Origin: Oidiodendron maius Zn
Lineage: Eukaryota; Ascomycota; Leotiomycetes; Myxotrichaceae
Length of the DNA stretch: 38,453 nucleotides
Assembly (NCBI GenBank): GCA_000827325.1
Contig: KN832880.1
Location: forward strand, 34,975 to 73,427
Direction of reading: 5' to 3'
Part shown: positions 10,461-38,453 of the stretch, in pieces
Layout of the letters: each line of letters starts with the position of its first letter
How positions within the stretch are numbered: the first letter of the stretch is position 1
Program-made: the position numbers and the translations under genes
Notes under the pieces: model-generated
What the model saw: the letters and a program-made list of their open reading frames with translations, nothing else
Databases searched by the model: none
Told to the model about the DNA's origin: nothing

Positions 10461-10770
10461 CGAAGTACGGTGTCAAAAGTCTTGAACCACGCTACAATGT
10501 TAGAGGTTAGAGTTAGGTTTCGCGCTACCGCCCAGCTTAGCGGCGCGGTGTACATGGGATTTAGCGTTACCACCCAAACCCCTGAATGCCTCTAAAAATC
10601 CCAAGCGCATTTCCTTTTTGCATATTGTGTTTATGTGTACACTATCAGGGGTTTGGGCGGTAACGCTAAACCCCATGTACACCGCGCCGCTAAAGCTGGG
10701 CGGTAGCGCTAAACTTAACTCTAACCTCTTAACACTGTAGCGTGCTTAACACTTTTGACACCGTACTTCG
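10461..10770. mobile_element. Foldback MITE, 310 bp, with ~125-bp terminal inverted repeats
   Basis: The left arm (10461-10585) and right arm (10645-10770) are near-perfect reverse complements. Both start CGAAGTACGGTGTCAAAAGT and both carry the GTACATGGG and AACCCCTGA blocks. The loop is about 59 bp. The element is flanked by TA on both sides (10459-10460 and 10771-10772), and the outer GTACGAAGTAC is itself palindromic, so the exact end is uncertain by a few bases. It has no coding capacity, so it would need a transposase in trans. A TA target suggests Tc1/mariner, but TA is short and this is inference. The few arm mismatches are mainly A/G and C/T. Confidence 0.85.
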
Positions 10771-13971: not shown

Positions 13972-14570
13972 CTAATCTGAGTCACCTACGTCAGACGGAC
14001 AGGATCCGTGAATTGCGTAGTATTCGTGGCGTCGCTCGTTTGCCTGCTGAAAGGTCTCACCGCATGCAGGGCACTCCGTTGTTGTGTGTATGGGACTAGT
14101 TCCAAGGGGCTTTCTCGGCCTTAACCTTGCACTGGGCTGCTCGGTGGCCAAACTGTCCACAAGTGTGGCACTTCCCGGTAGTGCCACCTCCGCTGTGGGA
14201 TCCTCTCCCACCTTTCCTGTATCCGCTCGTGCGTCGGGAGGCGTACATTGAACTATCGAGCCGGATGGATTCTGTGATGATTGCGTCGACGTCGCCATCC
14301 TCCGCATTGACAATGAGTCCTTCTCGGACATGCTGTTTCAGTCCTTTCGTGAACTGTGCAATCGCTGTGACGTCTGGTATCTGGAGCAGCGATGCGAGCT
14401 GTTTGAATTCAATGGCGTACAGCTGCACGGACGCCTTCTGGTAACAATTTGCGTATTTGCTAGCTGCTCGGGACTTGGCAGCAACTTCGGACAATACTTC
14501 GTACATGGCCGAAAGATTCATAATTCGGTGTCTGAGCGCAACCGTAGAAGCAAGGGTAGGATTTTGACGC
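13972..14570 (-). pseudogene. Ty3/gypsy-type Gag fragment with CCHC zinc knuckle
   Basis: The minus-strand frame from ATG 14519-14521 to a stop at 14096 gives 141 residues, and similarity continues upstream of the Met (TVALRHRIMNLSAMYEV). The core EFKQLASLLQIPDVT..FTKGLKQHVREGLI is typical retrotransposon Gag. It is followed by a Gly/Ser-rich basic linker and a perfect CX2CX4HX4C knuckle (CHTCGQFGHRAAQC, about 14123-14165), which binds nucleic acid. Just past the Gag stop, another minus-strand frame (ending 13972) carries a C2H2-like CPACGETF..RRHEYYAIH. It may be the shifted continuation or an unrelated join. No protease or reverse transcriptase follows, so this is a relic. It is not RIPped. 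Confidence 0.7.
14496..14549. repeat. Inverted repeat arm 1 in the Gag fragment
   Basis: This 54-bp arm is the reverse complement of 14678-14731 with essentially one mismatch. It covers the Gag MNLSAMYEV region. Confidence 0.85.
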
Positions 14571-14821
14571 TGCTTTACTATTTAGTATATTTAAAGTATG
14601 GTGTTGAGGCTTAGCTTCAAAAATGGGTTAAAGCGGGATATAAATCTATTGGCTACCACCCATGCAATACTAGAACTTTCTACGGTTGCGCTCAGACGCC
14701 GAATTATGAATCTTTCGGCCATGTACGAAGTAATAAACCGGTGTTCAGAGCAAGCTCCGATGTCAGTCAAGTCAGGGCTGACCCGCGGAAGAGACTAGCC
14801 AGTGCCGCGCACTGTCCAGGC
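14550..14821. other. Spacer holding the second inverted-repeat arm
   Basis: Between the Gag fragment and the helicase-like fragment. The plus strand at 14678-14740 repeats the Gag start in opposite orientation, after which the frame is lost. Nothing else recognised. Confidence 0.45.
14678..14731. repeat. Inverted repeat arm 2
   Basis: Reverse complement of 14496-14549, leaving a 128-bp loop. On plus it reads TVALRRRIMNLSAMYEV, i.e. a second, inverted copy of the same piece of gag. Confidence 0.85.
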
Positions 14822-15876: not shown

Positions 15877-15959
15877 GGCCAGCAAAAGTCGAACTCCCAC
15901 CTGTACGTGATGCTGGCTACGAACCTATAATTGCGATATTATCATAGAGCCAACGGGAG
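15877..15959 (+). ncRNA. Candidate HDV-like self-cleaving ribozyme at the 5' end of module X (best-preserved copy)
   Basis: 83 nt that fit the nested double-pseudoknot layout of HDV-like ribozymes. P1 is GGCCAGC (15877-15883) with GCTGGCT (15912-15918), seven pairs with a terminal G-U at the cleavage site as in HDV. P2 is CTCCC (15894-15898) with GGGAG (15955-15959). P3 is ACC (15899-15901) with GAT (15909-15911); the other copies read AGT there, so the ancestor was probably GGT, fully paired. L3 is seven nt, TGTACGT. P1.1 can form between GT (15903-15904) and AC (15919-15920). P4 is an AT-rich hairpin at about 15925-15947. J4/2 reads GCCAAC before GGGAG, as in the HDV GCGAAU-GGGAC segment, with C15950 in the place of the catalytic cytosine. 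Cleavage would be just before G15877. The J1/2 linker (10 nt) is longer than in HDV. No folding program was run. Confidence 0.6.
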
Positions 15960-16418
15960 ACCAGTGCATTCGATAGAGCTGGCGTGGGCGTCGCTGGTTA
16001 TACGACGGGGTTGCGCCTGTATAACGCTGGTAATAAGCTACCACCTAGAACAGAGGACTACTATCAAAATAGGTATAAAAACCATCCAATATATGACTAC
16101 CTATCTAGGGAATAGGCCTTCAATCACTATAACGGAGAATACTAGTAGAGGTAATATAGAACCGCTGCCTAATTATATAATAGAACACCTCTAGGGTATA
16201 TGAAAAATTTTCACCTAAAAGTATTGAGATTATAGGTATAACAATAGTTACTTGAAGGACCTACAAAACATCTATTAAAGCTCTTATTAACCAATAAACA
16301 CTTGGAGCTCTTATTAAGTAAAGAAATCTATATAAGGACTAAAGGGTTATAGTAATTATACTAGTCAATTAAAGGAATTCTAGAGGGATAATATAGGTAC
16401 TATAGCTTTAGCTTTATA
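15877..16418 (+). mobile_element. Module X, 5' part only (third copy, least RIPped)
   Basis: Matches the first ~540 bp of module X at 32245 and 37493 (minus), starting at exactly the same base. Many sites that are T or A in those copies are C or G here (for example TGGCGTGGGCGTCGCTGG), so this copy is close to the source sequence. Similarity ends at about 16418 in AGCTTTATA. The X 3' half and LINE part are absent. TAGTAATC precedes it (15869-15876) and recurs at 16541-16548, a candidate target duplication that would make a 664-bp unit. It contains an 87-codon open frame (15931-16194) with no recognisable domain. Confidence 0.75.
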
Positions 16419-17688
16419 TTATAAATATAGAATAAGGGTCTAAGGCTTAGTAGACAATAGTCTATATAGAGAACTCTTATAAGTAGCCTAGAAAGGGTTA
16501 TATAATATATATAGAATCATTGGAATCATTAGAATTAAGGTAGTAATCCAAATAATTCAGATAATCTAGGATAATAAAAGTTCTATATAAGTAGTATATA
16601 TTCCTTAGTAGATAGAAGCTTTATACTTAACTTAAATAAAGTATCTTATTTACTACTTTAGTAACTTATTGAATCTATATATTATTTCTTAACTTAATAG
16701 TATCTCTATCTTATTTAACTTATTTAATGATTTATCTAATACTAGATATAAGCTATTATTATACTTTAAATATCTAATCTAAAGTACTAATATATTATTA
16801 TTATTAAGAAGTTAATATATCTTCTATTAAAGAAGAAAGTTCTACTAGTAAGTAATAAATAGTTAAACTACTTATAAGATCCTTATATAAAGATATTAAA
16901 ATAAAGACTCTATAGACTTTCTTTAGAGAGAAATCTAAGCTTAAGGGTTTTCTAGTATAACTAAACTTATACTTAATATTCTATACTTAATGTTTTATCT
17001 CTTTAATTAAAAGAGTATTATATACTATTATTCTCTTTAAAAGGGAAGTATTAAACTAGATTAAAGGATTTATATAAGACTATCTTATTAATACTAGTCT
17101 ATAAGGATAAGTAATATCTAAAATAAAACCTAAGATATACTATATCTTTAGAAGCTTTAATAGATTCCTTAAGAAACTTAAGTATACCTTTAAAGACTTT
17201 AATAAAATTAAACAAGTAGTTTAAAGGATCTAATCTCTTAAATAGAAGGGATCTATAGCTATATATATAGTAGAACTTAATAGATATTCTATTAAGATAG
17301 AATAGAATAATATAATATTTAAGAATAAATACTATAAAGAGCTTAAAGAAGTTATAAAGGATAAACTATCTAGAACTAACTTCCTTAACTTATTTAAAGA
17401 ACTAATTAAAGATACTATATATATTAATAACTAATTTTATAAAAGAGTTAAAAAAAGGAAAGGATTTTATAATCTTATCTTTAAGAAATAATATAACTAT
17501 AGAAACTATTATAGTCTTTAACTAATAGAACTTAATACTACTAATAGAAAGGAACTATTACTCTAGAAATAATAAAACTATATAGAGAAGAAATTATATT
17601 TCAAATATAAAAAACTTAGTTATATAGTATATAACTATAAGTCTAAAGGAAATAGATAAAACTAACTTTATAAAGATAAGATTAATAT
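16419..17688 (+). pseudogene. RIP-degraded gypsy-type Gag of an older element (host of the nested insertions)
   Basis: With TAG/TAA read as mutated Gln/Trp codons, the plus strand gives a long Gag. It has an N-terminal variable region, then KLKGFL..LNLY, an F..KLKYTFKDFN segment, a QKGSIA.YI.ELNRY helix, ELKEVIKDKLSRTNF, and IYINNxFYKR..KRKGFYN, followed by an ELNTTN linker and a decayed knuckle region before NYKSKGNR. These follow the order of Retrotrans_gag domains in fungal Ty3/gypsy elements. The frame is cut at 17688 by gypsy element 1. Joined at the duplication, it continues in frame at 24074 for at least 40 codons. The element's own LTRs were not identified. Confidence 0.65.
17684..17688. 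repeat. Target-site duplication of gypsy element 1, left
   Basis: AATAT, repeated at 24069-24073. Confidence 0.85.
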
Positions 17689-17983
17689 TATAATAGCCTA
17701 GCTACTATAAGCTTTATAAAGGAAGGTAATAGCTAGTTAAGGTACTGTATTAATAAAGACAATTAAACTAAGAAGAGAAAAGTTCTCTAGATAAATACTT
17801 AACTATATAAATACTACTTAGTCTAGATTAAGTCTAGTACTAAGAGGATATAACGAATCGCTAGTGGCTGCTCTAGCCTACTAATCCTAATCTATTACAA
17901 ATCCTCCTTAACTACTATATCTAGATCCTAGCTGCTGCTAGTCTAGTAAAACTACTCTATCCTAGCCTAGTTAGGCTGTTATA
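17689..17983 (-). repeat. Gypsy element 1, 3' LTR
   Basis: 295 bp, TATAATAG..CTGTTATA on plus; direct repeat of 23774-24068. Confidence 0.93.
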
Positions 17984-17997
17984 CTACCCCCCCCTTC
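17984..17997 (-). other. Gypsy element 1 polypurine tract
   Basis: On minus, GAAGGGGGGGGTAG directly abuts the 3' LTR. Element 2 has the RIPped counterpart AAAGAGGGAAGTAG at 31277-31290. Confidence 0.85.
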
Positions 17998-20900
17998 AAG
18001 TAGTAGGTACCCTTAACTATAGTAGTCAAGTAGGTATATTAGGCCTATTGTCTATTAGATCCTTATAGCTATTATATCCCTGCTTCTAAGCCTTAATCTA
18101 ATCAACTAGTCTATATAGTAGTTCTAGCTACTATAGATATTCAGTATAGAAATCATATAGTTTATATAGAGAGTATTTGAAATCTAAAGCTAGATAGAAG
18201 TTAAGGTCTTTATTATAGCTGACCTAGATAGCCTAGTATAGCAGCTTACTCTATAAGAGCTTAGTAGCTAGTATCTTATCTACTTTATACTTAGTATTAT
18301 CTATAATATATATAGGCTCTAGCTCTAGATTATATTACCCTAGTAAAGGATTATCTACTGTCTTATATAGCTAGTCTATATAGAAAACATTATATACCTT
18401 AATAGAGTCTAGTAGCTTTAGTTAATAAGAGTAGCCTATCTTCCTTAAGATCTTAAAAGGGCTTTTATTCTAGTTATCTAGCTTCTTACTAGGTTATAGT
18501 ATATACTAGTCTTTCTAGATAATCTAGACCTTATCTCCTATATTAAAGTTAGAGACCTATTAGTATAGATTGATATTATACTCTTTCTTATACTAAGTCT
18601 TCTTAATAGCTTCTTTATCCTTATTAAGGGCTTCTTCTATATAGGTAGTAATATCCTTAGTATATTCCTAACTAAGCTATAGTATAGTATTAGCTAGTAC
18701 TAGCTATAATAGAGTTTAGTTAAAGGAGGTTTAGAGTAGATAGTTATTCTAGACCTTATATAGGGATAAGCTACTAAGACTACTATAGAGTAGGGTTAAT
18801 TAAGTATAGTTGATTATTAGTAGATAGTCTAACTAGTTATTCTAGTAGTAGCTTATAAAAGAATATAGATATAAATTATTATATTGATTAATAATCTTAG
18901 TTTAGCTATCTATCTATAGGTAATTAGTAGTTAATAGCTTATACTTAATCCCTAATATATAGTAAAAGGCAGCCTAAAATTCTAATATAAACTAGAGACT
19001 TTAGTCTAAGACTATCAAGTTAGAGGCTCTATAGTATCAGTAGATATATTAGGTAAACAGCTAGACTAAATCCTTAGTGTTTATAGTCTTAAAGCAAGGG
19101 ATAGATATTGCCTACTTAGTAAACTAGTCAACTATAACTAGTATAGTATTAAACCTCTTTTTGTCTAATAGAAAACTCTTAAAGTCTACTAATATATCCC
19201 TCTAGAGCTTATCTAGTATTAGTAAGGGGTATAGTAAGCTAAAGGTCTTATCTCTAGCTATATAGGATCTATAATAGATATAGTAGTTATATATATACTA
19301 CTTAATATCCAACTATATACCTAGCTAGTAATAGTATAGCTATAAGAGCTAGTAAATCTTATCCTTATCTAGATAAGCAATTAATATCTGATTATAAGCT
19401 TCTTGGATTAGCTTTATATAAAGGTTATCTAGAGTAATAGAGATAACTAATTGATCTATATATAGTAATAGTCTATTCTTAATAGTATATTTGCTTAGAG
19501 TAGCTAACTTGGCTTATATATAGAGGGCTTCTAGAGACTCTATATCTTTATTAGCCTAAAATATCTAGTCAACCAGGTTATTAGACTTATTAAAAGGGTC
19601 TTCTTCTTTAATAAGTAGTAGATCAATTGCTGATATCTTAATACCTAAGTCTTAAAGAACTCTAGGATCTATCTAGTCCTAGAATAGGAAGGTATAGGTT
19701 TAATATTAGATCTTGATTCTATCTTAAATAGCAACTTTAATATCCCTCTAAATAAATATATCTGCTTTCTAGTTCTGTTTACTAGGCCTATAGGATATAA
19801 CAAAATAGTATTTAGCTAGCGCTTTAGTCTAGTAAGTCTAATAGCTAGTTAGCTACTTTATTAATATAAAGTACTCTAGAGCCTTATAGTTAGTATAGAT
19901 TTTGACTTGTTTTATAATCCTTTAGAACTCTAGATACTACTTAGCTAGTAATCTAACTATAGCTAATATTTCCTTATTATATATCTTATAGTTATACTTA
20001 GTAGATACTATAGTCTTTAAGAAATAAACAACTAGATACTATTCCTTATTAGAGTAGAGCTATAATAAGATACTAGTAATTACCCTATCTAATATATCTG
20101 TTTTGATTATTAATTTATATTTAGGGCTATAATAGTATAGTATTAGTATAGCTATAAGCTATAGCTTTAGCTCCTTAAAAGCCTTCTAGTACTACTTATT
20201 GAATATAAATAGAATATTAGTCTTTATAAGTTAGATTAGAGGCTTAGTAATCCTTCTATAATCTTAGATAAAATACCTATAAAAGTTATAGAAGCCTAGG
20301 AACGACTAGATTCCCTTTACTATAGTAGAAGTAGTCTAGTTAACTACTATAGAGACCTTTTCTAGATTAACCTTAATACTATCTATAGTAATAATAAAGT
20401 CTAGATATTTAGTATACTTGATCCTAAATTTATACTTCTTTAAGTTAGCCTATAGGCTTATATCCCTTAGCTACTATAAGACTTTCTTAATATACTCTTT
20501 ATAGTCTAACTTATTCTTAAAGTAAATAAGGATATTGTCTAGATAAGTAATATAGAAATTATCTAGGTAATCAAATAGAATATTATTTATATACTACTAA
20601 TATATTACTAGTCTATTAGTAAGGCTAAAAGAAAGGACCTTATACTTATATAAACTATAATAAGTCTAGAAGGTAGTTAACTTCTTAGACTTAAAGTCTA
20701 TCTAGATCCAATTAAAAGCCTAGCAGATATCTAGCTTAATATAAAGCCTAGTATAGCTAATCTAGCTTAATAACTTATTAATTAATAGAAGGGGATATTA
20801 ATCCTTATAGGTTATTTAGTTTAAGTTCTAGAAATTAATATAGAGATATAGGTATCTATTAGCCTTATAAATAAAGAGGATCAGTATAGTAAAGGAGGTC

Positions 20901-23773
20901 TAACTAGGCTCTATAAAACCTTTATAAAGGTTCTTGATAAGGTAATACTTAACCTCCTTTAGTTCCTCTATAGTTATATAGTATAATAGTCTAAAACCTA
21001 GGTTATTAGACTCTATTAGGTTAATCCTATAATTATAAAGCTAGTTAGAAGGCAATATATCTGATACTTCTTTAGAAAAAATATCCTAGAACTCTTTATA
21101 AGCTACTAGTAGTAGTAGTTCTTATAGTATAGTAGACTCTAACTAGCTAATTTAATAGAGGTTAGTAGTCTAGCTACTACTATCTATAAGGCTTTAGTCC
21201 TTCTAATCTTGGATTAATTAGTCAATCTTATATAGGCTAGTTAAAAAGAGCTTACTATCCTTTTAATATAGATATAGACAAAAACTATTTACTAAGATAG
21301 TATTAATATCTATCTAGTAAGGCCTTTTAGCCTTAATAGGCTAGTAGGGCTTCTTTTAGTAAGGGAGGTTAAGGGTTTACTATTAGTCTAAAAGGTTATT
21401 ATTTATCTTCTATAGATAGTCCTAGAGCTCTAGCTTAAAGGAGACTTTAGATTAAAGCTTCTGTTTTAGCTTTAATTAAAAGGTTAATTTAACCTAGTTA
21501 CTAGAGGAAATTATAGTAATCTCTATACTCTTATAGTCTAAGTTGCTTCCCTAATCTATAGTAGTAAAGGCCTAGTCTCTATAATCTATATTCTTTTAGT
21601 AGCTAAAAGCCCTTAAGGCTAGGATTAGATCCTAGTAGTTCTACTAGATTTCCTTGATTACTAAGTAGCTAGGTAGTAACTTAACTAGCTAGACTAAGTA
21701 GTATTACTAGTAATCTAGTAAGATATCAAAATAGACTAGCTACTTCTATCTAATTATTATATTATAGCTTTCTAGATTCAATATTAAGAGAGGTATATTA
21801 TACTAGTAATACTAGTTAATAGTCAGATATAGCTATATATAATAGGTAACTAGCCTCTCTAGCTAGCTATTATATCCTTTAACCTAGATAGAGCTAGATA
21901 GTCAAGTAGTTTTAATATTAAAGGACCTAGCTAGATCAATTATAAAGAGTATATTAATAAATATAAATCTATTTACTCTAGAGTTAATAAAAGTATATAA
22001 AGCAATACTAGTTCTATTAGTTAATAGTATATAAGCTATAGTAAGGTACTATCCTCCTATAAGACTTCTTAAGTCAATTCCCTATAAATTAACCTTTAAA
22101 GAGTCTAGACTAGAGTCTTTATCTAGGTCTCCTCTTTTCCTGGGTCTATATTAGCGACTCTGTCTCTATAAATAGCATTCTTATAGACTCCTAGATCTCT
22201 AGCTTTATTATTCTTAATATCCTTAATATTAGCCGCTTGGTCTAGTAGCTTATAGTCTATATATAGGTGGCTAATCCCCCTATAATTAAAGTATCTAGTC
22301 TACTAGTATAGCTAGAACAGTAATATAACTAGCTAGGGGTTGATTAGCTTAAGCTAAGGTAGCTAGTCTAGGGCTAGTAGTAGTATACTACCTATTTAAC
22401 TAAGTAGCTTTAGGAGTTAAGGATACCTAACAGCCAGACAGGCAGGAAGTAGCTATATAGTAGCTTTAGCCTCTTAGTCCTTTATAATCTAGCTATTGAA
22501 GTATTATAGATCAGTATCAATATAGTCTAGATAATTGCAGAGCTTCTAGAAATCACTGTCTAGGTTATACTTAGTAGCTAGGATATATAACTAAAGAGGA
22601 GCTATAACCTTCTTATATAAGTTATTAAAATAGTCTGCTTCTGGAATCCAGTCTCTATTAACTAGCTAGAGGAATTATATCTTGAAGTCCTGGAAAAACT
22701 CTTTATCCTTTATTTTCAGTTTCTTATATTCAGTATAGAAGTCTTCCTTATAGTATTAGTTATAATAGATATTATTAAAGGCTATTAGTATTTTAGTATA
22801 ATCAAGGTAAAGGTTATTATTCTCTATATTACTAATATATTAAGGGTATAAGTACTACTAAGCCTCTCTCTCTATATAGTTAAAGATAAAGGACTAGATC
22901 TCCTAATCGCTATTAAATTAAAAGCTATTAATTCAGAGTTTATCTATAACTTGCTCCTTCTAGACTTAATACTCTATAGTTCTATCCTTCTTTCTAGAGA
23001 ATTAAGGAGAGTCCTTATACTTTAGTTTATATTAAACTATATACTAGAATTCAGATCTAGTTATTGGTTCTAGAGAAGCTTAGAGAGGAGTTAGGTTTTA
23101 GAGTAACTAGACAACTATAGCCTCTAGCTTTTCAATCTGCTTCTAGATAGTCTTAGCCTCTATTTAACTCTTGATTTAGGTATACTAAAGAGCTAAAAGG
23201 TTAGTATACTAGTCTAGGCTCTTAAAGGGTTCCTGATTAAAGGGGTTGCTTTTAAAAGAGGCTAGATACTAAATAGATCCTTATAGTTTAAAAGGTCTAT
23301 AAGAGGTATCCTTTACTTTACCCTTATCTTTAGCTAGAGGGGCTATATTAGTAGTCTTGAATTCAAAGGTTAAGCTTAGAGTATTAAATCAGTTATATAG
23401 TTATATTATAGATATATCCTGATTTCTATTACTATAGGCTATTAGAGACAGTATTCTTGCTAGGATATATTTACTAGTTATATAGGTATATATTTAAAGA
23501 TTAAAGAGTATAAGAGGTTTAATAGATTAATAAAGGTAGTAAGTATAAACAGGCTTAATAAATACTAGTTCTGATTAAATTCTAGCTTCTAAGGCTTCTC
23601 TAGCTGCCTTTACTTTAATAGCTTGTTTTATAACTATATAGTTAGAGCTAGTAATATTAAAGGTATAAAAGAGCTATAGATTAACTAATCTAGTAGCTTT
23701 TAGTAAGCAGCAGTAGTATTTAATCTTAACTAACTATAAGAGTAAAGAAGAAGAAGAATAAGTTTAATTATAA
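17996..23773 (-). pseudogene. Gypsy element 1 Gag-Pol, many stops
   Basis: The minus strand carries Gag, protease, reverse transcriptase, RNase H, integrase and chromodomain regions, aligned throughout with element 2. The Gag zinc knuckle (about 22252-22294) has its first and last Cys as Tyr but keeps His. The reverse transcriptase active site reads YLDN (20534-20545) instead of YLDD, a single GAT to AAT change. The frame is interrupted by very many TAG/TAA codons, nearly all at expected Gln positions. The frame ends with TGA at 17996-17998. Element 2 has TAA at the same place, so this appears to be the original pol stop. Not translatable. Confidence 0.9.
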
Positions 23774-24068
23774 TATAATAGTCTAGCTACTATAAGCTTT
23801 ATAAAGGGAGATAGTAGCTAATTAAAGTATTATATTAATAAAGATAATTAAACTAAAGAGAGAAAAGTTCTCTAGACAAATACTTAATTATATAAATATT
23901 ACTTAGTCTAGATTAAACCTAGTACTAAAGGAATATAGTGAATTGCTAGTAGCTACTCTAGCCTACTAGTCCTAATCTATTATAAATCCTTCTTAACTAC
24001 TATATCTGGATTCTAGCTACTACTAGTCTAGTAGAACTACTCTATTCTAGTCTAGCTAAGCTATTACA
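23774..24068 (-). repeat. Gypsy element 1, 5' LTR
   Basis: 295 bp, ending CTATTACA on plus, so the original TGTAATAG terminus is intact on the minus strand. Next to it on minus, TTATAATTAAA is the probable primer-binding region. Confidence 0.93.
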
Positions 24069-24073
24069 AATAT
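24069..24073. repeat. Target-site duplication of gypsy element 1, right
   Basis: AATAT, matching 17684-17688. Confidence 0.85.
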
Positions 24074-25205
24074 TATAAACTATAGAGAATATAATAGACT
24101 AATAGAATATAATATCTTCTTTATAAAAATAATATTTAACTCTTATAAGAAGTTAAGCTTTATAGAAACTTTTAATACTTAAATCTATAATATATATATA
24201 TAGTAAGTTAACTAAATAAATAAATCAACTACTTTTTCTAAGATCTATTATAAAACTAATTATTATTTAACTATAATACCTTAAAATTAATTACTATTAT
24301 ATAAGTCCTTTTCTTTAAAGGTCTTTACTATTATTTAATAGATATATATATTATATCTAGTCTTACTATAGATACTATAGTACTAAATATATAATTATAT
24401 CCCTTAGTTCTAACTACTACTACTATTTATTTTATTACTTTATTAACTATCTATATTAGTTTAAGCTACTAGATCCTTTACCTTCTATATAGAGAATAAT
24501 TCTCCTTTTTATAGTCTAGTTTTTTTTAGCTTTATAGTATTTACTAAGCCTTTTATTTACTTCTTCTAGCTTAGTAATCTATAATTATAATAGAGTTACC
24601 TTATATATAATTACTATTAAACTCTTAGTAAATTAATCTATAGTATTAATAGTCTATATTAAAAAGCTACTCTAATAGTAATTAATTCAGGTTTTAATAA
24701 AGGTAGACTATTATAAAGTATTAGTTATATTCTTTAAAGTTATAGGATTCTAGATTTAAGCTATACTAGAGTATAAGTTTAAAGGAGTTAGTGTTTTTAT
24801 ATAAGAAAGTAAAGTATCTAGTATTTATTAAGGGTTAAAAGGTATAATTCTAGTCCCTTTAAAGCTTCTCTAGATATTTTATATAGTTATTAACTCTTGA
24901 AATACTATCTAGAATACTAGAAAGAAATTCTTCTTTATAATATAGATCTAACTACTATATATTAATCTCTTGATTTGCTTATTATATATCTTTTTCAATA
25001 GACTAAAATAGCTTATATTAAATAGCTAAAGTATATAAGAGGAATAAACAGATATATAGAGTATAATAATATTATAGTTTTAATAGAAAATCTTAAATTT
25101 AGTTAAGTAGTAGGATTTATAGCTATTAAGTATTAGAAGTTAATATCTATCTATTTTTTAAGATTATATATATAATTTGAAATACTTAATCTAATCTAGA
25201 CTAAT
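24074..25205 (+). pseudogene. Continuation of the older Gag-bearing element between the two gypsies
   Basis: The Gag frame of 16419-17688 resumes here in phase. With Gln-type stops read through it continues for several hundred bases. Beyond the first part I cannot assign a domain, and no protease or RT motif is visible. Very AT-rich and heavily RIPped. The last five bases (25201-25205, CTAAT) are the left duplication of gypsy element 2. Confidence 0.45.
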
Positions 25206-25500
25206 TATAATAGCTTATCTAGGCTAGGATAGAGTAGTTCTACTAGACTAGTAGTAGCTAGAATCTAGATATAGTAGTTAAGGAGGATTTATAATAGATT
25301 AAGACTAGTAGGCTAGAGTAGCTACTAGTAATTTACTATATCTCCTTAATACTAGGCTTAATCTAGACTAAATAGTATTTATATAGTTAAGTATTTACTT
25401 AGAGAACTTTTCTCTCTTTAGTTTAATTGTCTTTATTAATATAGTACCTTAACTAGCTACTGTCTCTTTTTATAAAGCTTATAGTAGCTAGACTATTATA
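25206..25500 (+). repeat. Gypsy element 2, 5' LTR
   Basis: 295 bp, TATAATAG..CTATTATA (RIPped TG..CA ends); followed by TTATAATTAAATTTACTC, the probable primer-binding region. Confidence 0.93.
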
Positions 25501-25539
25501 TTATAATTAAATTTACTCTTCTTCTTCTTTACCCTTATA

Positions 25540-28500
25540 GTTAATTAAGATTAAATACTACTACTATTTACTAAAAGCTACTAGATTAGTTAATCTATAG
25601 CCCTTTTATATCTTTGATATTACTAGCTCTAACTATATAGTTATAAAATAAGCTATTAAAGTAAAGGTAGCTAAAGAAGCTTTAGAAGCTAGAATTTAAT
25701 TAGAACTAGTATTTATTAAGTCTATTTATACTTACTATCTTTACTAATCTATTAAACCTTTTATACTCTTTAACCTTTAAATATATACTTATATAACTAG
25801 CAAATATATTCTAGTAAGAATACTATCTTTAATAGCCTATAGTAACAGGAATTAGAATATACCTATAATATAACTATATAACTAATTTAATACTTTAAGC
25901 TTAATCTTTAAATTCAAGACTATTAATATAGTCCCTTTAGCTAAGGATAAGAGTAAAGTAAAGGATACCTTTTATAGACCTTTTAAACTATAAGGATCTA
26001 CTTAATATCTAGCCTCTTTTAAAAGCAACTCCTTTAATCAGGAACCCTTTAAGAGTCTAGACTAGTATACTAACCTTTTAGCTCTCTAGTATACCTAAGT
26101 TAAGAGTTAAATAGAGGCTAAGACTATCTAGAAGCAGATTAAAAAGCTAAAAACTATAGTTATCTAGTTACTCTAAAACCTAACTCCTCTTTAAGCTTCT
26201 CTAGAACTAATAACTAGATCTAAATCCTAGTATATAGTTTAATATAAGCTAAAGTATAAGGACTCTTCTTAGTTCTCTAGAAAGAAGGATAGAACTATTA
26301 AGTATTAAGTCTAGAAGGAGTAAGTTATAGATAAACTCTAAATTAATAGCTTTTAATTTAATAGTGATTAGAAGATCTAGTCCTTTATCTTTAACTATAT
26401 AAAGAGAGAGGTTTAGTAGTACTTATACTCTTAATATACTAGTAATATAGAGAACAATAACCCTTACCTTAACTATACTAAGATACTAATAGCTCTTAAT
26501 AATATCTATTATAACTAATATTATAAGGAAGACTCCTATACTAAATACAAGAAACTAAAAATAAAGGATAAAGAGTTTTTCTAGAACTTCAAGATATAAT
26601 TCCTCTAGCTAGCTAATAGAGACTAGATTCTAGAAGTAGACTGTTTTAATAACTTATATAAGAAGGTTATAGCTTCTCTTTAGTTATATATTCTAGCTAT
26701 TAAGTATAACCTAAATAGTGACTTCTAGAAGCTCTATAACTGTCTAGGCTATATTAATACTAATCTATAATACTTTAATAGCTAGATTATAAAAGACTAA
26801 GAGACTAAAGATACTATATAGCTATCTCTTATCTATCTAGCTATTAGGTATCCTTAACTTCTAAAGCTACTTAGTTAAATAGATAGTATATTACTACTAG
26901 CTTTAGGCTAGCTACCTTAGTCTAAGCTAACTAACCTCTAGCTAGTTATATTACTATTCTAACTATACTAGCAGACTAGATACTTTAATTATAGGGGGAT
27001 TAGCTATCTATATATAGACTATAAGCTACTAGACTAAACAGCTAATATTAAGGATATTAAGAATAATAAAGCTAGAGACCTAGAAGTCTATAAGAATACT
27101 ATTTATAGGGATAGAGTTACTAATATAGACCCAGGAAAAGAGAAGGCTTAGATAAAGACTCTAGTCTAGGCTCTCTAGAGGTTAATTTATAGGGAATTAA
27201 CTTAAGAAGTCTTATAGGAGAATAGTACTTTACTATAGTTTATATACTATTAACTAATAGAACTAGTATTGCCTTATATACCTTTATTAACTCTAAAGTA
27301 AATAGATTTATATTTATTAATTTACTTTTTATAATTAATTTAGCTAGATTCTTTAATATTAAAACTATCTAACTATCTAGCTTTATCTAGATTAAAGGAT
27401 ATAATAGCTAGCTAGAGAGACTAGTTATCTATTATATATAGCTATACTTAACTATTAACTAGTATTACTAGTATAATATACCTCTTTTAATATTAGATCT
27501 AGAAAGCTATAATATAATAATTAGATAGAAGTAGCTAGTCTATTTTAATATCTTACTAGATTACTAGTAATACTACTTAGTCTAGCTAGCTAAGTTACTA
27601 TCTAGCTATTTAGTAGCTAAAGAAATCTAGTAGAACTATCAGGATCTAATTCTAGCCTTAAGAGCTTTTAGTTATTAAGAGAATATAGATTATAAAGACT
27701 AGGCCTTTACTGCTATAGATTAGGGAAGCGATTTAGACTATAAGAGTATAGAGATTACTATAATTTCCTCTAATAGCTAGATTAAATCAACCTTTTAACT
27801 AAAGCTAAAGTAAAAGCTTTAATCTAAAGTCTTCTTTAAGCTAGAGCTCTAGGACTATCTATAGAAGATAAATAATAACCTTTTAGACTAATAGTAAACC
27901 TTTAATCTCCTTTATTAAAAGAAGCTTTACTAGCCTATTAAAGCTAAAAGACTCTATTAAATAGATATTAATACTATCTTAATAAATAGTTTTTACTTAT
28001 ATTTATATTAAAAGAATAATAAGCTCTTTTTAACTAGTCTATATAAGATTAACTAATTAATCTAAGATTAGAAAGACTAAAGCCTTATAGATAGTAGTAG
28101 CTAGACTATTAACCTCTATTAAATTAGCTAGTTAGAGCCTACTATACTATAAGAACTACTACTACTAGTAGTTTATAAGGAGTTTTAGGATATTTTTTCT
28201 AAAGAAGTATTAGATATATTATCTCTTAACTAGCTCTATAATTATAGGATTAATCTAATAGAGCTTAATAATCTAGGTTTTAAACTATTATACTATATAA
28301 CTATAAAGGAACTAGAGGAGATTAAGTACTACCTTATTAAGAACCTTTATAAAGGTTTTATAGAGTCTAGTTAGGCCCCCTTTACTATACTAATCCTCTT
28401 TATCTATAAAGCTAATAGATATCTATATCTTTATATTGATTTCTAGAACTTAAACTAGATAATCTATAAGGATTAGTATCCCCTTCTATTAATTAATAAG

Positions 28501-31278: not shown

Positions 31279-31290
31279 AGAGGGAAGTAG
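31277..31290 (+). other. Gypsy element 2 polypurine tract
   Basis: AAAGAGGGAAGTAG next to the 3' LTR; RIPped version of the G-run in element 1. Confidence 0.75.
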
Positions 31291-31585
31291 TATAATAGCT
31301 TATCTAAGCTAGAATAGAGTAGTTCTATTAGGCTAATAATAGCTAGGATCCAGATATAGTAGTTAAAGAGGATTTATAATAGATTAGGACTAGTAGACTA
31401 GAGCAACTACTAGCGATTTACTATATCCCTTTAGTACTAGACTTAATCTAAACTAAGTAGTATTTATATAGTTGAATATTTATCTAGAGAACTTTTCTCT
31501 CTTTAGTTTAATTGTCTTTATTAATATAGTACTTTAACTAGCTACTATCTCCTTTTATAAAGCTTATAGTAGCTAGACTATTATA
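31291..31585 (+). repeat. Gypsy element 2, 3' LTR
   Basis: 295 bp direct repeat of 25206-25500. Confidence 0.93.
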
Positions 31586-31590
31586 CTAAT
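31586..31590. repeat. Target-site duplication of gypsy element 2, right
   Basis: CTAAT, matching 25201-25205. Confidence 0.85.
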
Positions 31591-32233
31591 CTTATTTATA
31601 GTCTATCTATTATTACTAATAGAGAATCTCTAACCCTTTAGTAATTTAAACTTATTATATTAGAAGAATAGAATATATATACTCTTTATAACTATAAATA
31701 ATAGTAGTAACTAGCTAAGTATATCTATAGCCTAGATTACTATAACCTATTTATAATTATTAGGCTACTTTAACTTTACTTTATTAGACCTCTTTAAACT
31801 TATAACTACTATTACTATAAAGATAATATCTATTATAAACCTAGTCTTATTAAAATTATAGATATCTATATCTATAATCCTATATTTTATAATTATATTC
31901 TTTAGGAGTAAAAACTAGCTTTAAATTAATATTAGATCTTTATATTTAGCTCTTTAATAGTTATATCTTTAATTAAAATATATAATAAACTATAGTTATT
32001 ATTTTATAAAGTTTAATAGCTAGTATATTCTAATATATCCTATATTTTACTTAGTAAATAAACAATTAGTTATATCTTTAATACTATAAAGTCTAAAGGG
32101 AAACTCTTTAGAATTAAGGTTAAGAATATATTGAATAATTACTAATTCTTCTAAATTAATAAGCTTTTAAGATTTAGACTAAATATTATATTATAATTAT
32201 TAGCTACTATATTAATTAATAAGTATTATATAT
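31591..32233. other. RIPped remnant, continuation of the older host element
   Basis: AT-rich DNA between gypsy element 2 and the first composite element. A plus frame with Gln-type stops can be followed in parts, but I do not recognise a domain. By position it should continue 24074-25205. Confidence 0.4.
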
Positions 32234-32244
32234 AGGATATTATA
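32234..32244. repeat. Target-site duplication of composite element B, left
   Basis: AGGATATTATA, repeated exactly at 35580-35590 after the (TAA)n tail. Confidence 0.9.
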
Positions 32245-32327
32245 GGCCAGCAAAAGTCGAACTCCTACCTGTATATAGTACTGGCTATAAACCTATGATT
32301 GCAATATTATTATAGAGCTAACGGGAG
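32245..32327 (+). ncRNA. Candidate HDV-like ribozyme, RIP-altered copy
   Basis: Same 83-nt span as at 15877. P1 GGCCAGC is intact and its partner is ACTGGCT. P2 is CTCCT with GGGAG. The P3 partner reads AGT, L3 is TGTATAT, and J4/2 GCTAAC keeps the catalytic-type C (32318). It begins at the first base after the target duplication. Probably weak or inactive after mutation. Confidence 0.5.
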
Positions 32328-33430
32328 ACTAGTGTATTCGATAGAGCTAGTATAGGCGTTACTGGTTGTATAATAGGGTTATACCTATATAATACTGGTG
32401 ATAAGCTACTATCTAGAATAGAGGACTACTATTAAAATAGGTATAAAAACCATCCGATATACAACTACCTATCTAGGGAATAGGCCTTTGATCACTGTAA
32501 TATAGAGGTGATATAGAACCGCTATCTAGTTGTATAATAGAACACCTCTAGAGTATATAAAAAATTTTCATTTAAAAGTATCGAGATTATAGGCATAATA
32601 ATAGTTATTTGAAGGACCTATAAAACATCTATTAGAGCTTTTATTAACTAACAAACACTTGGAGCTCTTATTAAGTAAAGAAATCTATATAAGGACTAGA
32701 GGGTTATAGTGATTATACTAGTCAATCAAGGGAATTCTAGGGGGACAATATAGGTACTATAGCTTCAGCTTTATAGTAAACCTACAGGTATATAGTATAG
32801 AGGAACTCTACTATAGAGGTAGGCCTGAGGATATATAGCGACTATATAGTACTATAACTTCAACTTTATAAATATAGGGTTTAATAAATATAGGCAAAGC
32901 AAGGTGTTTAAAGGATAGGCAAAGCAGGTAGTTAGGAAGTAGAGGAGAGGATATATATACTTTGGTTAGTAGGAGGGAAAAGCGTTTATATAATACCTAG
33001 CTAGGGTTATATACTTTATAACTCCTATAAGATATAGTTAGTCTTACTATAAGAGAAGACCTAGTAAGGTAATACAAAACAGTATACTGCTATAAGGTAT
33101 AGTATATAATAGTAGTAATAGTTAGGTAAAGTAGCTACAAGGTATCTATAAGGGACCTATATAACACTATCTATATAGCCTAAGAGGACAGATATATATA
33201 TTAGTCTATAGATAGAGCTATAGGGCAGTAGGTATAGTAGGCTGATATAGGCTTAGGGAGCAAACAGGGTAGAGGGTATAAGGGAGGTCGCTAGAGCCTT
33301 AATGTCCCTTTAAAATATATACTGGAGGTGAGCTTTAGCAACAGACTAAGGATATATAGGAAAGTGTAGTAGGAGCTTGCTACTCTCTCTTGTATTGTAG
33401 ACTAGCTTTGTAATATAATTCTGTTCCTGC
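32245..33430 (+). repeat. Module X, full length (~1,186 bp)
   Basis: Reverse complement of 36309-37493 and, for its first ~540 bp, direct repeat of 15877-16418. The 5' half has no recognised coding. From about 32890 a plus frame with Gln-type stops can be read, ending near the conserved stretch GANRVEGIREVARALMSL (about 33260-33312). I do not recognise it. The 3' end is the same base in both full copies. Confidence 0.85.
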
Positions 33431-35420
33431 TTCTAGTAGGGTTCCTGAAGGCATATAGTAGACCCCTCTCAACGATTCTTGCAGCTATAACCCAAGCTAG
33501 CTTTAACCTTAAATACTTCCTGAAGCGGTTCTGTAGTACAGGAGTAGTAGTCCTTAAGAAACTAGGCAAGATACTAATACAGCAACAAACAGCTAGAGGC
33601 TAGAGACTAATCTCTCTACTAAGTACAGTTAGAAAACTTATTGAAGGGGTAATAGAGAGTCAAATTACAGATACAGTAGAGTTATAGCAACTACTGCTAG
33701 AGGGTCAAACAGAGAACAGAAAAGAGCGGTCTATAGAACTTGCTATATACCTGGTTACTGAAGCAGTATAGATAGCCTAGAGCTATAGAGTAGTAGCCTT
33801 ACTACTCTAGCTTGATATTAAAGGAGCCTTTGATACAGTCAACTATACTAGACTCCTAGACACCCTATATAAACAGGGCTTCCTGATATAGGTAGTAAGA
33901 TAGACTAACAGCTACCTTAAAGTATACTCTATAAGGCTTATATTTGATAGCGAAGTATTAGAGCCAATACAGATTAGGGTAGGGGTCTTACAGGGATCCC
34001 CTTTATTACTAATCCTATTCCTGCTCTATATAGCCTTGCTCTATAAAGCCCTAGAGAAGTATAGAAACCTGATAATTATAGGATTTATAGATAATACAAA
34101 CCTTCTAGTAGCTAGCTATAATGTCTAGGAGAACTGCTAGTAACTCAAGAGTATATTCAAGGTCTATAAACACTAGACTAAAACAAGAGGTATAGAGTTT
34201 ACCCCTTAAAAGAGTAAACTTATACACTTTATCTAGAAGTATATAGGGTTCTTGAAGGTGGTTTATCTAGCAGGATATATAATCAATCTAGTAGAGTTAG
34301 CCTGATTCCTTAGAGTCTAGCTAGATAGAAAGCTCTAATAGAGTTGCTATCTAAAAGAAGTCAAGAAGAAGCTAGCTATCTAGAAGCTTACACTTATAAA
34401 GCTTGTAGTATTAGTCTAGAGATATAGCCTAGTCTATATAAGAGAAATCTATACTAAGGTAATAAGGGTAATAATAGTATATAGAGTATCTGTATAATAT
34501 AAACCTAGTAAGGTAGGAGTGAACTCTAGAGGTATTACTAACCACTTTAGTATAGTATAGTCTAACTGTCTCTATATAGTAACTAGAGGATATTATATAA
34601 TCCAGATTCAATATCTTAAGATTAAAGCAACTACTCTATTAATCTATATATACCTTAATAAGAGAGTTATAGAATTTAAGTCAAGGCTTGAATATACAGG
34701 TATAGCTAAGAAGGTATATAGTACCTATACTATAATAGTAACCTGCCTCTGATAATAGAGGACAAGAATCAGGCTAGTAGGACTATAACTCCTATCTAAA
34801 AGAGGAGAATAGAAGGTAAAGTAGACAAGCAGGTAGTATACTAAAGGGGAGCTAACAATAGATAAAGCAGTAGAGAGGGACTAGAGACTATAGTAGGAAG
34901 GTAAAGTTAAGATATAGGTAAGGTTCTAGAGAGGACCTAGTATAGAACTAGTAGATATAGACCCTGAATTTAAAGGGAAAAAGATACTCCAGAAATACTA
35001 GAACCTTAAGAAGTATAAAAGCTCCCTTCTTATATAGATCTATATAGGCAAGATAGGGCTCCAAGTATTCCTGTTCTAGTAAAGGGTCCTAGAAGTGAAT
35101 ACACTGCTCTGTCGCTATAGCATTATAGGGGAAACACTAGCCTATATAGTCCTCTATTGCCTAGAACTATAATAAGAGAGAGAGGAGCTCTAGAGAGCCC
35201 TCCTACTATACCCTCTTTAAACTACCTGTAACTTTATAGTAGTAATAGTAGACCCAGCCTATATAGGGATAGTAGTAAGGTGGCTGCTAGCTAGCGGCTG
35301 CCTCCCTGAGTTCCGGCAAGCCTATAGGTATACAGCAATCCAGGACCAGGAGGAGAAGGAGGAAGAAAGGGGGCTATAGAGGCTCCAGGTAGTATTATAT
35401 AGTCGGCGGTGAGACCAGCT
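33431..35420 (+). pseudogene. LINE reverse transcriptase, C-terminal part (Tad1-like), RIPped
   Basis: The plus-strand frame starts inside the fingers and proceeds with a LISLLSTVRKLIEGVI motif (about 33610-33650), LDIKGAFDTVNYTRLL (about 33811-33858), GVLQGSPLLLILFLLYI (about 33985-34035) and the active site FIDN (34084-34095) in place of FxDD, a GAT to AAT change. Thumb and connection follow. Near the C-terminus a GKIGLQVFLF..L..CRYSIIGET..YIVLYC block (about 35045-35167) matches the CxCG..ET..H...C knuckle of fungal Tad1-like LINEs, with one Cys lost. I see no RNase H domain between thumb and knuckle, although many Tad1 elements have one. Stops are mainly TAG at Gln positions. RIP is heavy up to about 35250 but almost absent at 35270-35420. 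Confidence 0.88.
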
Positions 35421-35560
35421 AAGTAGCAGCAAGGACCAGGCAAAGATACTTCATGTATATAGGGACCAATATATAAGGGTTTCATCCAGCTCTAAGGGGT
35501 ATAGTTTACCTTATAATATTTCTAGTAGAGGTTCTATAGCTAGATAGCTAAACAGAGTAT

Positions 35561-35579
35561 TAATAATAATAATAATAAT
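35561..35579 (+). repeat. LINE 3' (TAA)n tail, copy B
   Basis: About six TAA units directly before the target duplication. A simple-repeat tail in place of poly(A) is known for several LINE clades. Confidence 0.88.
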
Positions 35580-35590
35580 AGGATATTATA
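35580..35590. repeat. Target-site duplication of composite element B, right
   Basis: AGGATATTATA, matching 32234-32244. Confidence 0.9.
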
Positions 35591-35762
35591 GATTTTAGCT
35601 ATATATCTAGTAGTAAAATAGAGATTATTTTTAAGGGCTTAAAGAGTAAAGATAACTCTACTTTTTTAAGAACTTAATTCTATACTATATAATAGAGAAA
35701 AAGTATTATAAAGTATAAAAGAGAGTAAAATTAAGAAAAGTAGTTAACTTACTTATTTAGTT
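35591..35762. other. Short AT-rich spacer between the two LINE tails
   Basis: About 170 bp of the older RIPped host sequence. TTAACTTACT occurs twice in tandem near 35743-35770, the second copy being part of the duplication of copy C. No gene. Confidence 0.5.
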
Positions 35763-35775
35763 AACTTACTATATA
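35763..35775. repeat. Target-site duplication of composite element C, left
   Basis: AACTTACTATATA, repeated at 37494-37506. Confidence 0.88.
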
Positions 35776-36308
35776 TTATTATTATTAATACTCTGTTTAG
35801 CTATCTAGCTATAGAACCTCTACTAGAAATATTATAAGGTAAACTATACCCCTTAAGGCTAGACAAAACCCTTATATATTAGTCTCTATATATATAAAGC
35901 GTCTTCGCCTGGTCCTTGCTGCTACTTAGCTAGTCTTACTACCAACTATATAATACTACCTGGAGCCTCTATAGCCCCTTTTCTTCCTTCTCCTCCTCCT
36001 AGTCCTAGATTGCTGTATACCTACAGGCTTGCTAGAACTCAGGGAGGCGGCCGCTAGCTAGCAGCCACCTTACTACCGTCCCTACACAGGCTAGGTCTGC
36101 CGTTGCTGCTATGAAGTCACGGGTGGTTCAAAGGGGGTGCAGCAGAAGGGCCCTCTAGAGCTCCTCTCTCTTTTATTATAGTTCTGGGCAATAGAGGACT
36201 ATATAGGCTGGCATTTCCCCTATAATGCTGCAGCGATAGAGCGGCATGTTCATTTCTAGGACCCTTCGCTGGAACAGGAATACTCGGAGCCCTATCTTGC
36301 CTATATAG

Positions 36309-37493
36309 CAGGAACAGAATTATATTACAAAGCTAGTCTATAATATAAGAGAGAGTAGTAAGCTCCTATTATACTTTCCTATATATCCTTAGTCTATTAC
36401 TAAAGCTTACCTCTAGTATATATTTCAAAGGGACATTAAGGCTCTAGCAACCTCCCTTATACTCTCTGCCCTATTTACTCCCTAAGCCTATATTAGCCTA
36501 CTATATCTACTGCTCTATAGCTTTATTTATAGACTAATATATATATCTATCCTCTTAGGCTATATAGATAGTATTATATAGGTCCCTTATAAATACCTTA
36601 TAGCTATTTCGTTTAACTATTACTACTATTATATACTATATCTTATAGTAATATACTGTTTTATATTACTTTACTAGATCTTCCCTTATAGTAAGGCTAA
36701 CTATATCTTATAGAAGTTATAAAGTATATAACTTTAGCTAGATATTATATAAATGCTTTTCTCTTCTATTAACTAAAGTATATATATCCTCTTTCTTACT
36801 TTCTAGCTACTTGCTTTATATATCCTTTAAATACTCTACTTTACCTATATCTATTAAACTCTATATTTATAAAGTTAAAGTTATAGTATTATATAATTAC
36901 TATATATCTTTAGACCTACCTCTATAGTAGAGTTTCTCTATATTATATATCTATAGGTTTACTATAAAGCTAAAGCTATAGTATCTATATTATCCCTCTA
37001 GAATTCCCTTAATTAACTAGTATAATCACTATAACCCTCTAATCCTTATATAGATTTCTTTACTTAATAAGAGCTCTAAGTGTTTATTAGTTAATAAGAG
37101 CTTTAATAGATATTTTATAGATCCTTTAAGTGACTATTATTATACCTATAATCTTAATGCTTTTAGATAAAAAATTTTTATATACTCTAGAGGTATTCTA
37201 TTATATAACTAGATAGTAGTTCTATATTATCTCTATATTATAGTAATTAAAGGTTTATTCTCTAGATAGATAGTTATATATTAGATAGTTTTTATATCTA
37301 TTTTAATAGTAGTCTTCTATTCTAGATAGTAGTTTATTACTAGTATTATATAGATATAACTCTATTATACAACTAGTAATACCTATACTAGCTCTATTAA
37401 ATATACTAGTCTTCTATTAGCTCTATAATAATATTGCAATTATAGGTTTATAGCTAGTACTATATATAGATAGAAGTTTGACTTTTACTAGCT
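36309..37493 (-). repeat. Module X, full length, inverted copy
   Basis: About 1,185 bp, reverse complement of 32245-33430. It ends at the same X base before switching to LINE sequence. Confidence 0.85.
37411..37493 (-). ncRNA. Candidate HDV-like ribozyme, heavily RIPped copy
   Basis: Again exactly 83 nt from the target duplication to the end of the P2 strand. P1 is mutated to AGCTAGT. P2 reads CTTCT with AGAAG, still pairing because both strands changed. Probably inactive. Confidence 0.4.
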
Positions 37494-37506
37494 AACTTAC
37501 TATATA
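37494..37506. repeat. Target-site duplication of composite element C, right
   Basis: AACTTACTATATA, matching 35763-35775. Confidence 0.88.
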
Positions 37507-38453
37507 TATATATATTATATAATTTTGATATTAATTATTAAGGTTTAATTTATATATTACTATAAATTTAGCTAATATAAATTAGATTTATATTAGATAA
37601 AGGATAGATTAATATAAATATTATTATAAAATTAATAAAGTATTTAATATATATTTATTAATATCCTATAATTAAGTATATACTTAATTAACTTTCTTAT
37701 ATTCTAGTATTCCTAGTTTTATTTACTAGATAAGAAGTATATCCTTTTACTAAATTATAACTCTTTTAGTATATATTACTATTAGATTAGTTATTATAAA
37801 TATTAATATAATTAATAAAGAAGATATAAGTAATACTTATACTTGAATTTATAAACTAATACTATCTCTATAGCTTCTTATAGAGTATAACAAGTAGCTT
37901 CTTAGAATTAATATAATCTATTAATTTAGTTATCTAAAGTAATTCTATTTATAATTTCCTTAACTATATATCTAAATAGTATCTTTAGAATAAGGAGTTT
38001 AGTAGACTTTTAATAATATCTGATTTTATATAAAGTATAAACTAAACTAGTTAGTAACTTATAGTAATCTTTATATTAATTAATATTACTTATATTTTTG
38101 TTTTTTATACTTTAAGATTAGAGTCTTTCTTATTTCTTTAGTCTCTAGCTTTATTATAGAGTATATTTTAGATAGAGGAAAGAGTATAGTTTTATCTTCT
38201 ATAACTAAACTAGAATAGGTTTTAGTTCTAGCTTTATAAAAGTTAGTAGTATTTTATTATAGAGGTAATTATACTTATATTTTATAGTAATCTTTCTAGT
38301 AATATACTTAGATTAAAAAGACTAGCTAATTAAAGTAGATTAGAGTAAAAGTAAAAAATAGATATCTAGTAAAAAGAAGATTAAAGTTATCTAGCCTTAT
38401 AGAGATTAGTAGTATTTTATTATTAGATTAATTTTCTTATAATTTATAGTAAT
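37507..38453. pseudogene. RIP-degraded AT-rich remnant to the window end
   Basis: Very AT-rich. A minus-strand frame with Gln-type stops reads fairly continuously (for example near 37690-37910), so a decayed mobile-element gene is likely, but I cannot name it. A (TA)n run lies at 37500-37521. Confidence 0.35.

Follow-up and report, generated by a model that had tools for sequence, protein, structure and literature searches.

MINE chimeras are said to have been described since 2005, in work attributed to Fudal. In Magnaporthe grisea, they consist of WEIRD, a noncoding and highly expressed sequence of 1113 nt, joined to a truncated MGL or Mg-SINE and bounded by duplications of 10-20 bp; according to the available part of the source, WEIRD had no solo copies and no relatives then known (PMC2104539). 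The same part contains no mention of a ribozyme in WEIRD and no statement of what sets the 5' end of WEIRD RNA (PMC2104539). U6-L1 and other mammalian LINE chimeras likewise carry a full-length cellular RNA at the 5' side and a truncated LINE at the 3' side, arising by template switch (PMC2104539, available part). Their 5' parts are known cellular transcripts, unlike the module described here. To our knowledge, no ribozyme is known in U6-L1 or the other mammalian LINE chimeras.

HDV-like ribozymes are found at the 5' ends of LINEs, namely R2, L1Tc/ingi (Pr77), and the element carrying drz-Agam-1, which we take to be an RTE ribozyme. The module reported here, termed module X, shares with them the fold, a predicted cut at the element 5' end, and the retrotransposon setting, and drz-agam-1 was the Rfam model closest to its ribozyme family. 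In contrast to these systems, the ribozyme of X heads a separate noncoding module, and the LINE itself showed no match to the ribozyme model built in this study (R1, see below). In filamentous fungi, 230 variants of the HDV class were reported from 26 species, with cleavage of two bimolecular constructs, and 11 fungal ribozymes of the usual type were known earlier (PMC5640933, in the part available). X resembles these variants in ribozyme class and in occurring in filamentous fungi. However, according to that part, the variant typically shows C-G where cleavage occurs, a loop E within P4, and one additional nucleotide separating P2 from P3 (PMC5640933). In X, the corresponding pair is G-U, P4 is a plain hairpin, and P2 abuts P3. 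The string "retrotranspos" is absent from the main text of that paper.

The likeness of X to WEIRD is one of build. As in MINE, whose description was available in part, a noncoding, full-length 5' module of about 1.1 kb is joined to a variably truncated LINE or a SINE (PMC2104539). X had a fixed 3' boundary, nine junction points in the LINE in nine copies, and duplications of 12-16 nt at 10 insertions, compared with 10-20 bp in MINE. Unlike MINE, X occurs in another class (Leotiomycetes), carries a ribozyme fold, which that part does not mention for WEIRD, and has junctions that include a SINE 5' end and a second LINE-like element.

Module X and its ribozyme fold in the window

The genome searched was that of the soil-dwelling Oidiodendron maius (Leotiomycetes; 45.9 Mb, 58 contigs), a single fungal genome. 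The window, i.e., the whole stretch of 38,453 nt analyzed here, is located on contig C11 and contains three copies of X (W1 to W3; Table 1). The initial annotation had placed an 83-nt HDV-like fold at the start of W1; P1, P2, P3, P1.1, P4, and the C of J4/2 were all located as it described, and the 83-nt span was retained in 3/3 window copies. Because W1 has a single mismatch in P3 and another in P4, its ribozyme may be weak or dead. C-to-T decay across many repeats is typical of RIP, and the RIP-damaged ribozyme copies of the window may be dead.

Table 1. Features of module X and its ribozyme fold mapped in the window.
Feature	Position	Strand	Remark
HDV-like ribozyme fold, copy W1	15877..15959	+	cut predicted before G15877; C15950 putatively catalytic
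P1 of W1	15877-15883/15912-15918	+	7 pairs, first G-U
P2 of W1	15894-15898/15955-15959	+
P3 of W1	15899-15901/15909-15911	+
P1.1 of W1	15906-15908/15919-15921	+
P4 of W1	15925-15931/15941-15947	+
J4/2 C of W1	15950	+	within C-N-A-A
Copy W1 of module X, initial ~540 nt	15877..16416	+	X 1-527 matches 15877-16414; some copies match to 16431
LTR-like repeat, ~345 nt, interrupting X copy W1	16417..16763	.	several places match ~query 38-384 alone
HDV-like ribozyme fold, copy W2, decayed	32245..32327	+	R1 100.9 bits at 32245-32338
Module X, copy W2, full length	32245..33430	+	X 1-1186, 84.7% identity to L036
5'-truncated LINE fused to X copy W2, (TAA)n end	33431..35577	+	LINE matches from 33435
W2 target site duplication, left	32232..32244	+	13 nt; 14th base G32245 shared
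W2 target site duplication, right	35578..35590	+
HDV-like ribozyme fold, copy W3, strongly RIP-mutated	37411..37493	-	R1 81.0 bits at 37493-37400
Module X, copy W3, full length	36308..37493	-	X 2-1186, 76.1% identity to L036
5'-truncated LINE fused to X copy W3	35777..36307	-
W3 target site duplication at X 5' end	37493..37507	-	15 nt, base 1 of X included
W3 target site duplication at LINE 3' end	35762..35776	-

The strict structure descriptor missed W1 and reported one unrelated site in the window, at 21320 (0.18 expected per shuffled strand). The loose descriptor, which tolerates one P3 mismatch and a 4-bp P4, found W1 together with two unrelated sites on the + strand and none on the - strand. 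As the loose descriptor yielded a mean of 1.8 sites per strand in 60 shuffled windows and W1 passes this form only, the W1 fold, judged from the window alone, is not beyond chance. At base 1 of the other copies, the strict and loose descriptors succeeded in 11/29 and 15/29, respectively; the copies that failed carried RIP changes, a non-G base 1, or single mismatches. Rfam at gathering thresholds gave nothing in the window, and its permissive mode gave no HDV-type model for W1.

Other features of the window were also recorded. Two stretches of 6.4 kb with LTR-type ends (17686-24082 and 25192-31588) are inverted relative to each other, 91% complementary, and separated by 1.1 kb. Near-perfect inverted repeats (10537-10693 and 14495-14732; arms of 49 and 55 nt, 96-98%) are present in the GC-richer part of the window. 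Further, an ORF bearing DUF6570 was identified at 2908-4101 (-); domains of this type occur near Helitron-type helicases.

Comparative evidence for the ribozyme fold

A DNA search of the genome listed 40 places, and a core pattern search found 21 places, with 0 in the reversed control. DNA, pattern, and further searches combined showed the fold, in some cases decayed, at 34 places. Exact core patterns were found 0 times in viral_contigs and genome_contigs. Two alignments were used: A1, with 17 copies drawn from 31 of the places and including RIP-damaged copies, and A3, with 17 rows (16 distinct) comprising less damaged copies, the window copy, and L050 to L052.

In A3, the 24 pairs of the HDV double pseudoknot were paired in 96.1% of 384 cells, compared with 31-55% for slid versions. 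Two-sided changes, which the initial annotation expected of a genuine fold, were present at 10 pairs (37 cells) in P1, P2, P1.1, and P4, and 0/500 shuffles matched either the pairing fraction or the number of two-sided pairs. A1 gave similar values (95.8% of cells paired, nine two-sided pairs). The number of pair types in A3 was not above that of shuffles, which equaled or exceeded it in 119/500. Within P1, pair 4-40 was CG in 8, UA in 4, and UG in 4 rows, and pair 5-39 was AU in 9, GC in 4, GU in 2, and unpaired in 1. Pair 21-82 of P2 was CG in 13 and UA in 3 rows, so the pseudoknot helix also covaries; the three UA rows (L050 to L052) may represent one event. Two-sided changes were found in four pairs of P4 and in none of P3. 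RIP converts C to T on either strand and can thereby give the appearance of some two-sided changes. Copies of about 50% GC also show this fold together with two-sided changes.

Both P1 and P2 were whole in most undamaged copies. The two deviating P3 triplets of the window, GAT and AGT, had been ascribed to an ancestral GGT, and GGT was indeed present in 16/17 A3 rows, the exception being the window copy. The pair at the predicted cut site was purine-pyrimidine throughout the 16 distinct A3 rows (G-U in 15/16, A-U in 1/16). In HDV-like ribozymes, the catalytic C of J4/2 is followed by N-A-A. This C was conserved in 17/17 A3 rows, and the next bases fitted C-N-(A/G)-A; it can be T in the strongly RIP-mutated L013 and L022, which are outside A3. 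RNAalifold alone, whose scope does not extend to pseudoknots, recovered P1 and P4 and placed a different small helix instead of P3. On this comparative evidence, we regard the HDV-like ribozyme family as real.

Model R1 was built from A1 with P2 omitted. Searched over 31 sources, it gave 28 matches of at least 37 bits, two of them at the same place, and the next best match scored 15.0 bits. Matches to A1 rows hold by construction; W1 scored 109.2 bits, but it is a row in the alignment from which R1 was made. Matches outside A1, among others W2, W3, L019, L022, L025, L032, L043 to L047, and L050 to L052, scored 37.3-116.2 bits.

Among the Rfam models, drz-agam-1 matched the undamaged relative L050 at 27.4 bits (E 0.0043), followed by HDV_ribozyme (22.2 bits) and HDV-F-prausnitzii (20.1 bits). 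The three HDV-type models shared one register on L050, their first matched base being identical or lying two bases upstream. L029, L031, and L052 matched drz-agam-1 at 19.9-22.3 bits, the match of L029 being without the true 3' half, and no HDV-type model matched L010, L021, L023, L024, L026, L028, or L051. No copy reached the curated Rfam cut-offs (best 27.4 vs. 37 bits for drz-agam-1), and these HDV-type models are family-specific rather than defining for the HDV-like class.

L039 (C1:1841200-1851100) contains three related ribozymes, at 247, 1753, and 8252, with shared conserved upstream sequence and CCCTACGGG repeats; the upstream conservation extends over about 170 nt in two of the three, and the adjoining ORFs are HNH-like and NB-ARC-like by eye. 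Because of the shared upstream sequence, not every ribozyme copy is a retro-inserted 5' end. L039 may have arisen by duplication of a gene cluster, or it may be a source locus resembling X. L031, L050, L051, and L052 form a second group, distinguished by a short P4 and by the sequence that follows P2 (GAGTCGCAA). They lie in undamaged DNA with mixed gene neighborhoods, and no attached element was recognized beside them.

Ends and fusion partners of module X

Module X is about 1186 nt long and noncoding, and its 5' end coincides with the start of P1; no forward ORF of at least 60 aa starting from ATG was found in L036, L037, or L034. In a profile of 19 copies, conservation set in abruptly at base 1-2: base 1 was G in 13/19 and bases 2 and 3 were invariant (19/19), whereas the commonest base at upstream positions reached only 7-12/19, like AT-rich background. 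The 3' boundary was fixed as well; in 12 copies, the last 12 bases agreed in 8-12/12, compared with 4-8/12 for the following bases. The global fold of X (-359 kcal/mol) was unremarkable against 8 shuffles (-333 to -370 kcal/mol). Within the one genome searched, no source gene of X was found, and no X-X junction was detected with up to 3 mismatches.

Target duplications of 12-16 nt were identified for 10 insertions among 13 copies with a located 3' end: L036, L037, L006, L049 (with one mismatch), L044, W2, W3, L047, and L041 and L043, which carry swapped halves. The remaining three of these 13 copies, L003, L034, and L048, had no duplication. An automatic scan reported none for 14/25 entries, L038 among them, many with a 3' end that was cut, unlocated, or beyond reach. 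The 10 duplicated insertions started at base 1 in five cases, at base 2 in two, ambiguously at base 1 or 2 in two (W2 and W3), and with one extra base in one. Elsewhere in the genome, too, the 5' ends fell at the same G or one base off it. The initial annotation had P1 start immediately behind the duplication. This is right for 32245 to within one shared base; at 37493 it holds to ±1, since the first base, A, lies inside the 15-nt repeat.

L041 (C11:1546429 +) and L043 (C11:1486589 -) are oppositely oriented X-SINE copies carrying each other's duplication halves, and one of the swapped duplications carries one mismatch. Such an exchange is expected if the intervening 60 kb had been inverted by recombination.

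In nine copies, X continued into the same LINE at nine different points, located about 457 (L049), 1327 (L038), 1435 (L020), 1786 (L034), 2210 (L047), 2359 (L015), 2370 (L048), 2987 (W2), and 4597 nt (W3) from the LINE 5' end. L044 also ran into this LINE, with its junction masked. The X of L034 was diverged (67-68% identity over 1.1-1.2 kb) and met the LINE after position 1139 instead of 1186; its terminal sequence was that of the other copies. This LINE codes for a reverse transcriptase (RT) and an endonuclease-like domain. Judged by coordinates, X lay upstream in the same orientation, at a distance of up to 1 kb, for 3 of the 41 LINE matches listed (40/52 candidates scored).

Other partners were found in addition to this LINE. 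The X of L036 ran into a second LINE-like element, which showed 27% identity over a stretch to the ORF of another LINE and had a (CA)n tail; the whole composite sat within a 15-nt duplication. In L036 and its flank (oriented positions 3242, 7166, 8237, and 9309), this second element, with a (CA)n/(TA)n tail, repeatedly preceded the same ACCTGGATCTTAGC, which suggests target specificity. In L037, L041, L043, and L006, X ran into a 706-nt SINE from the first bases of the SINE, as judged by eye past RIP changes in three of the four. The SINE gave 43 matches listed (40/48 candidates scored; best 99% identity), of which 4 lay behind X, and its (TAA)n tail is like that of the LINE. Its head carries a tRNA-like box B; ARAGORN found no tRNA there.

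No full-length X without a partner was found among the 15 copies read beyond the X 3' end. X ended before its usual 3' boundary in L035, L042, and L045, and mixed or short high-copy repeats followed the truncated X of L035 and L042. In L003 (1501-3446), the sequence behind X consists of an X fragment, pieces of the SINE, and another X fragment, possibly reflecting several template jumps in one insertion or a rearrangement.

Proposed origin of the chimeras and alternatives

We consider it likely that X is a noncoding RNA unit headed by an HDV-like ribozyme of about 83 nt, and that LINE RTs jump to the 3' end of the released X RNA. The fold and its position, the fixed ends of X, the varied partners, and the target duplications are features of the DNA itself; from them we infer cleavage, release of X RNA, and the RT jump. 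A transcript entering X from upstream would be cleaved immediately 5' of the first P1 base, so that the remaining RNA starts at X. As the junctions suggest, a LINE RT would copy its own RNA or SINE RNA at the nicked target and, at the 5' end of this template or when stalled part-way, would jump to the 3' end of X RNA. It would then copy X up to the ribozyme-made 5' end. The expected product has the build seen in the genome, a full-length X joined to a complete SINE or to a truncated LINE, with target duplications on both sides. Because each copy would keep both the ribozyme and a tail recognizable to the RT, chimeras could move again. The joining of the X 3' end to several different jumping elements suggests that self-cleavage frees the RNA for template-jumping enzymes. 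For R2, whose RNA is cut at the element end, the available part of the source describes variable junctions with microhomology and added bases (PMC3774820), and the gain or loss of bases at X 5' junctions follows this pattern. Pr77 of trypanosomes serves as a promoter as well as a ribozyme (PMC4035085, in the part available), and by analogy X could combine the two roles.

One alternative takes X for the normal 5' end of the LINE and explains the chimeras by internal deletion, in the way that SIDER or NARTc elements relate to L1Tc. The LINE 5' end is the usual site of an HDV-like ribozyme (PMC4035085, available part), and wherever copies were read through the X 3' end, LINE or SINE sequence follows X. 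However, a 5' end other than X is common to five LINE copies and lies about 460 nt above the longest X-LINE junction; in L054 to L057 it had no R1 match, i.e., the ribozyme is not the autonomous LINE's own 5' end there, and the only R1 match in the fifth, L019, was a separate X copy in opposite orientation. X is also fused to the second LINE-like element and to the SINE. Because the LINE has its own 5' ends and X has several partners, X as the 5' UTR of this LINE is largely refuted, and we regard this origin as quite improbable. Slightly less improbable, and still unlikely, is that transcription of a separate X gene starts at the sharp 5' end and that the fold is a relic or serves another role without cleavage. 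High expression and full-length presence in chimeras are described for WEIRD with no ribozyme mentioned in the available part of the source (PMC2104539), which would fit such a start, but it leaves unaccounted for both the start of P1 at base 1 and the conservation of P1, P2, P1.1, P3, and the J4/2 C.

Two further explanations appear far less probable. Both ends of X are fixed, as would be the case if X RNA came from tandem or circular viroid-like multimers in which one ribozyme makes both ends; multimers existing only as RNA would escape a DNA search, but the X-X junction is absent from the genome (up to 3 mismatches) and the fold energy of X is like that of shuffled sequence, and we give this origin very little credence. 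Even less credible is a chance fold in AT-rich, RIP-mutated DNA. The frequency of loose-descriptor sites in shuffled windows and the failure of W1 in the strict form would allow it, whereas the recurrence of the fold, two-sided changes included, in copies with a GC content near 50% and the agreement of three Rfam HDV-type models on register speak against it. Barring an alignment artefact, it is refuted by the pairing and covariation in A3.

The initial annotation regarded an HDV-like ribozyme heading a fungal composite element as new. This may hold for the combination; fungal HDV-like ribozymes (PMC5640933) and fungal composites of the MINE type (PMC2104539) are each already known from the available parts of these sources. 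No paper joining an HDV-like ribozyme with a MINE-type chimera was found in the open-licence literature searched, mostly at listing level. What appears to be new is that ribozyme and MINE-type chimera are united, that the ribozyme stands apart from the LINE, and that two LINE-like elements and a SINE share X.

More tentatively, and with rather less than even confidence, X might be a selfish noncoding RNA whose 5' end is set by its ribozyme and whose 3' end is a landing site for unrelated LINE RTs, and which spreads only as a 5' passenger without an RT-priming end of its own; WEIRD might be of the same kind, with its ribozyme undetected. If the ribozyme acts at base 1, it would answer what defines the 5' end of a fully copied WEIRD-type RNA. 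An HDV-like ribozyme would then be uncoupled from the LINE that does the copying, and 5'-end formation would be a module shared by different RTs.
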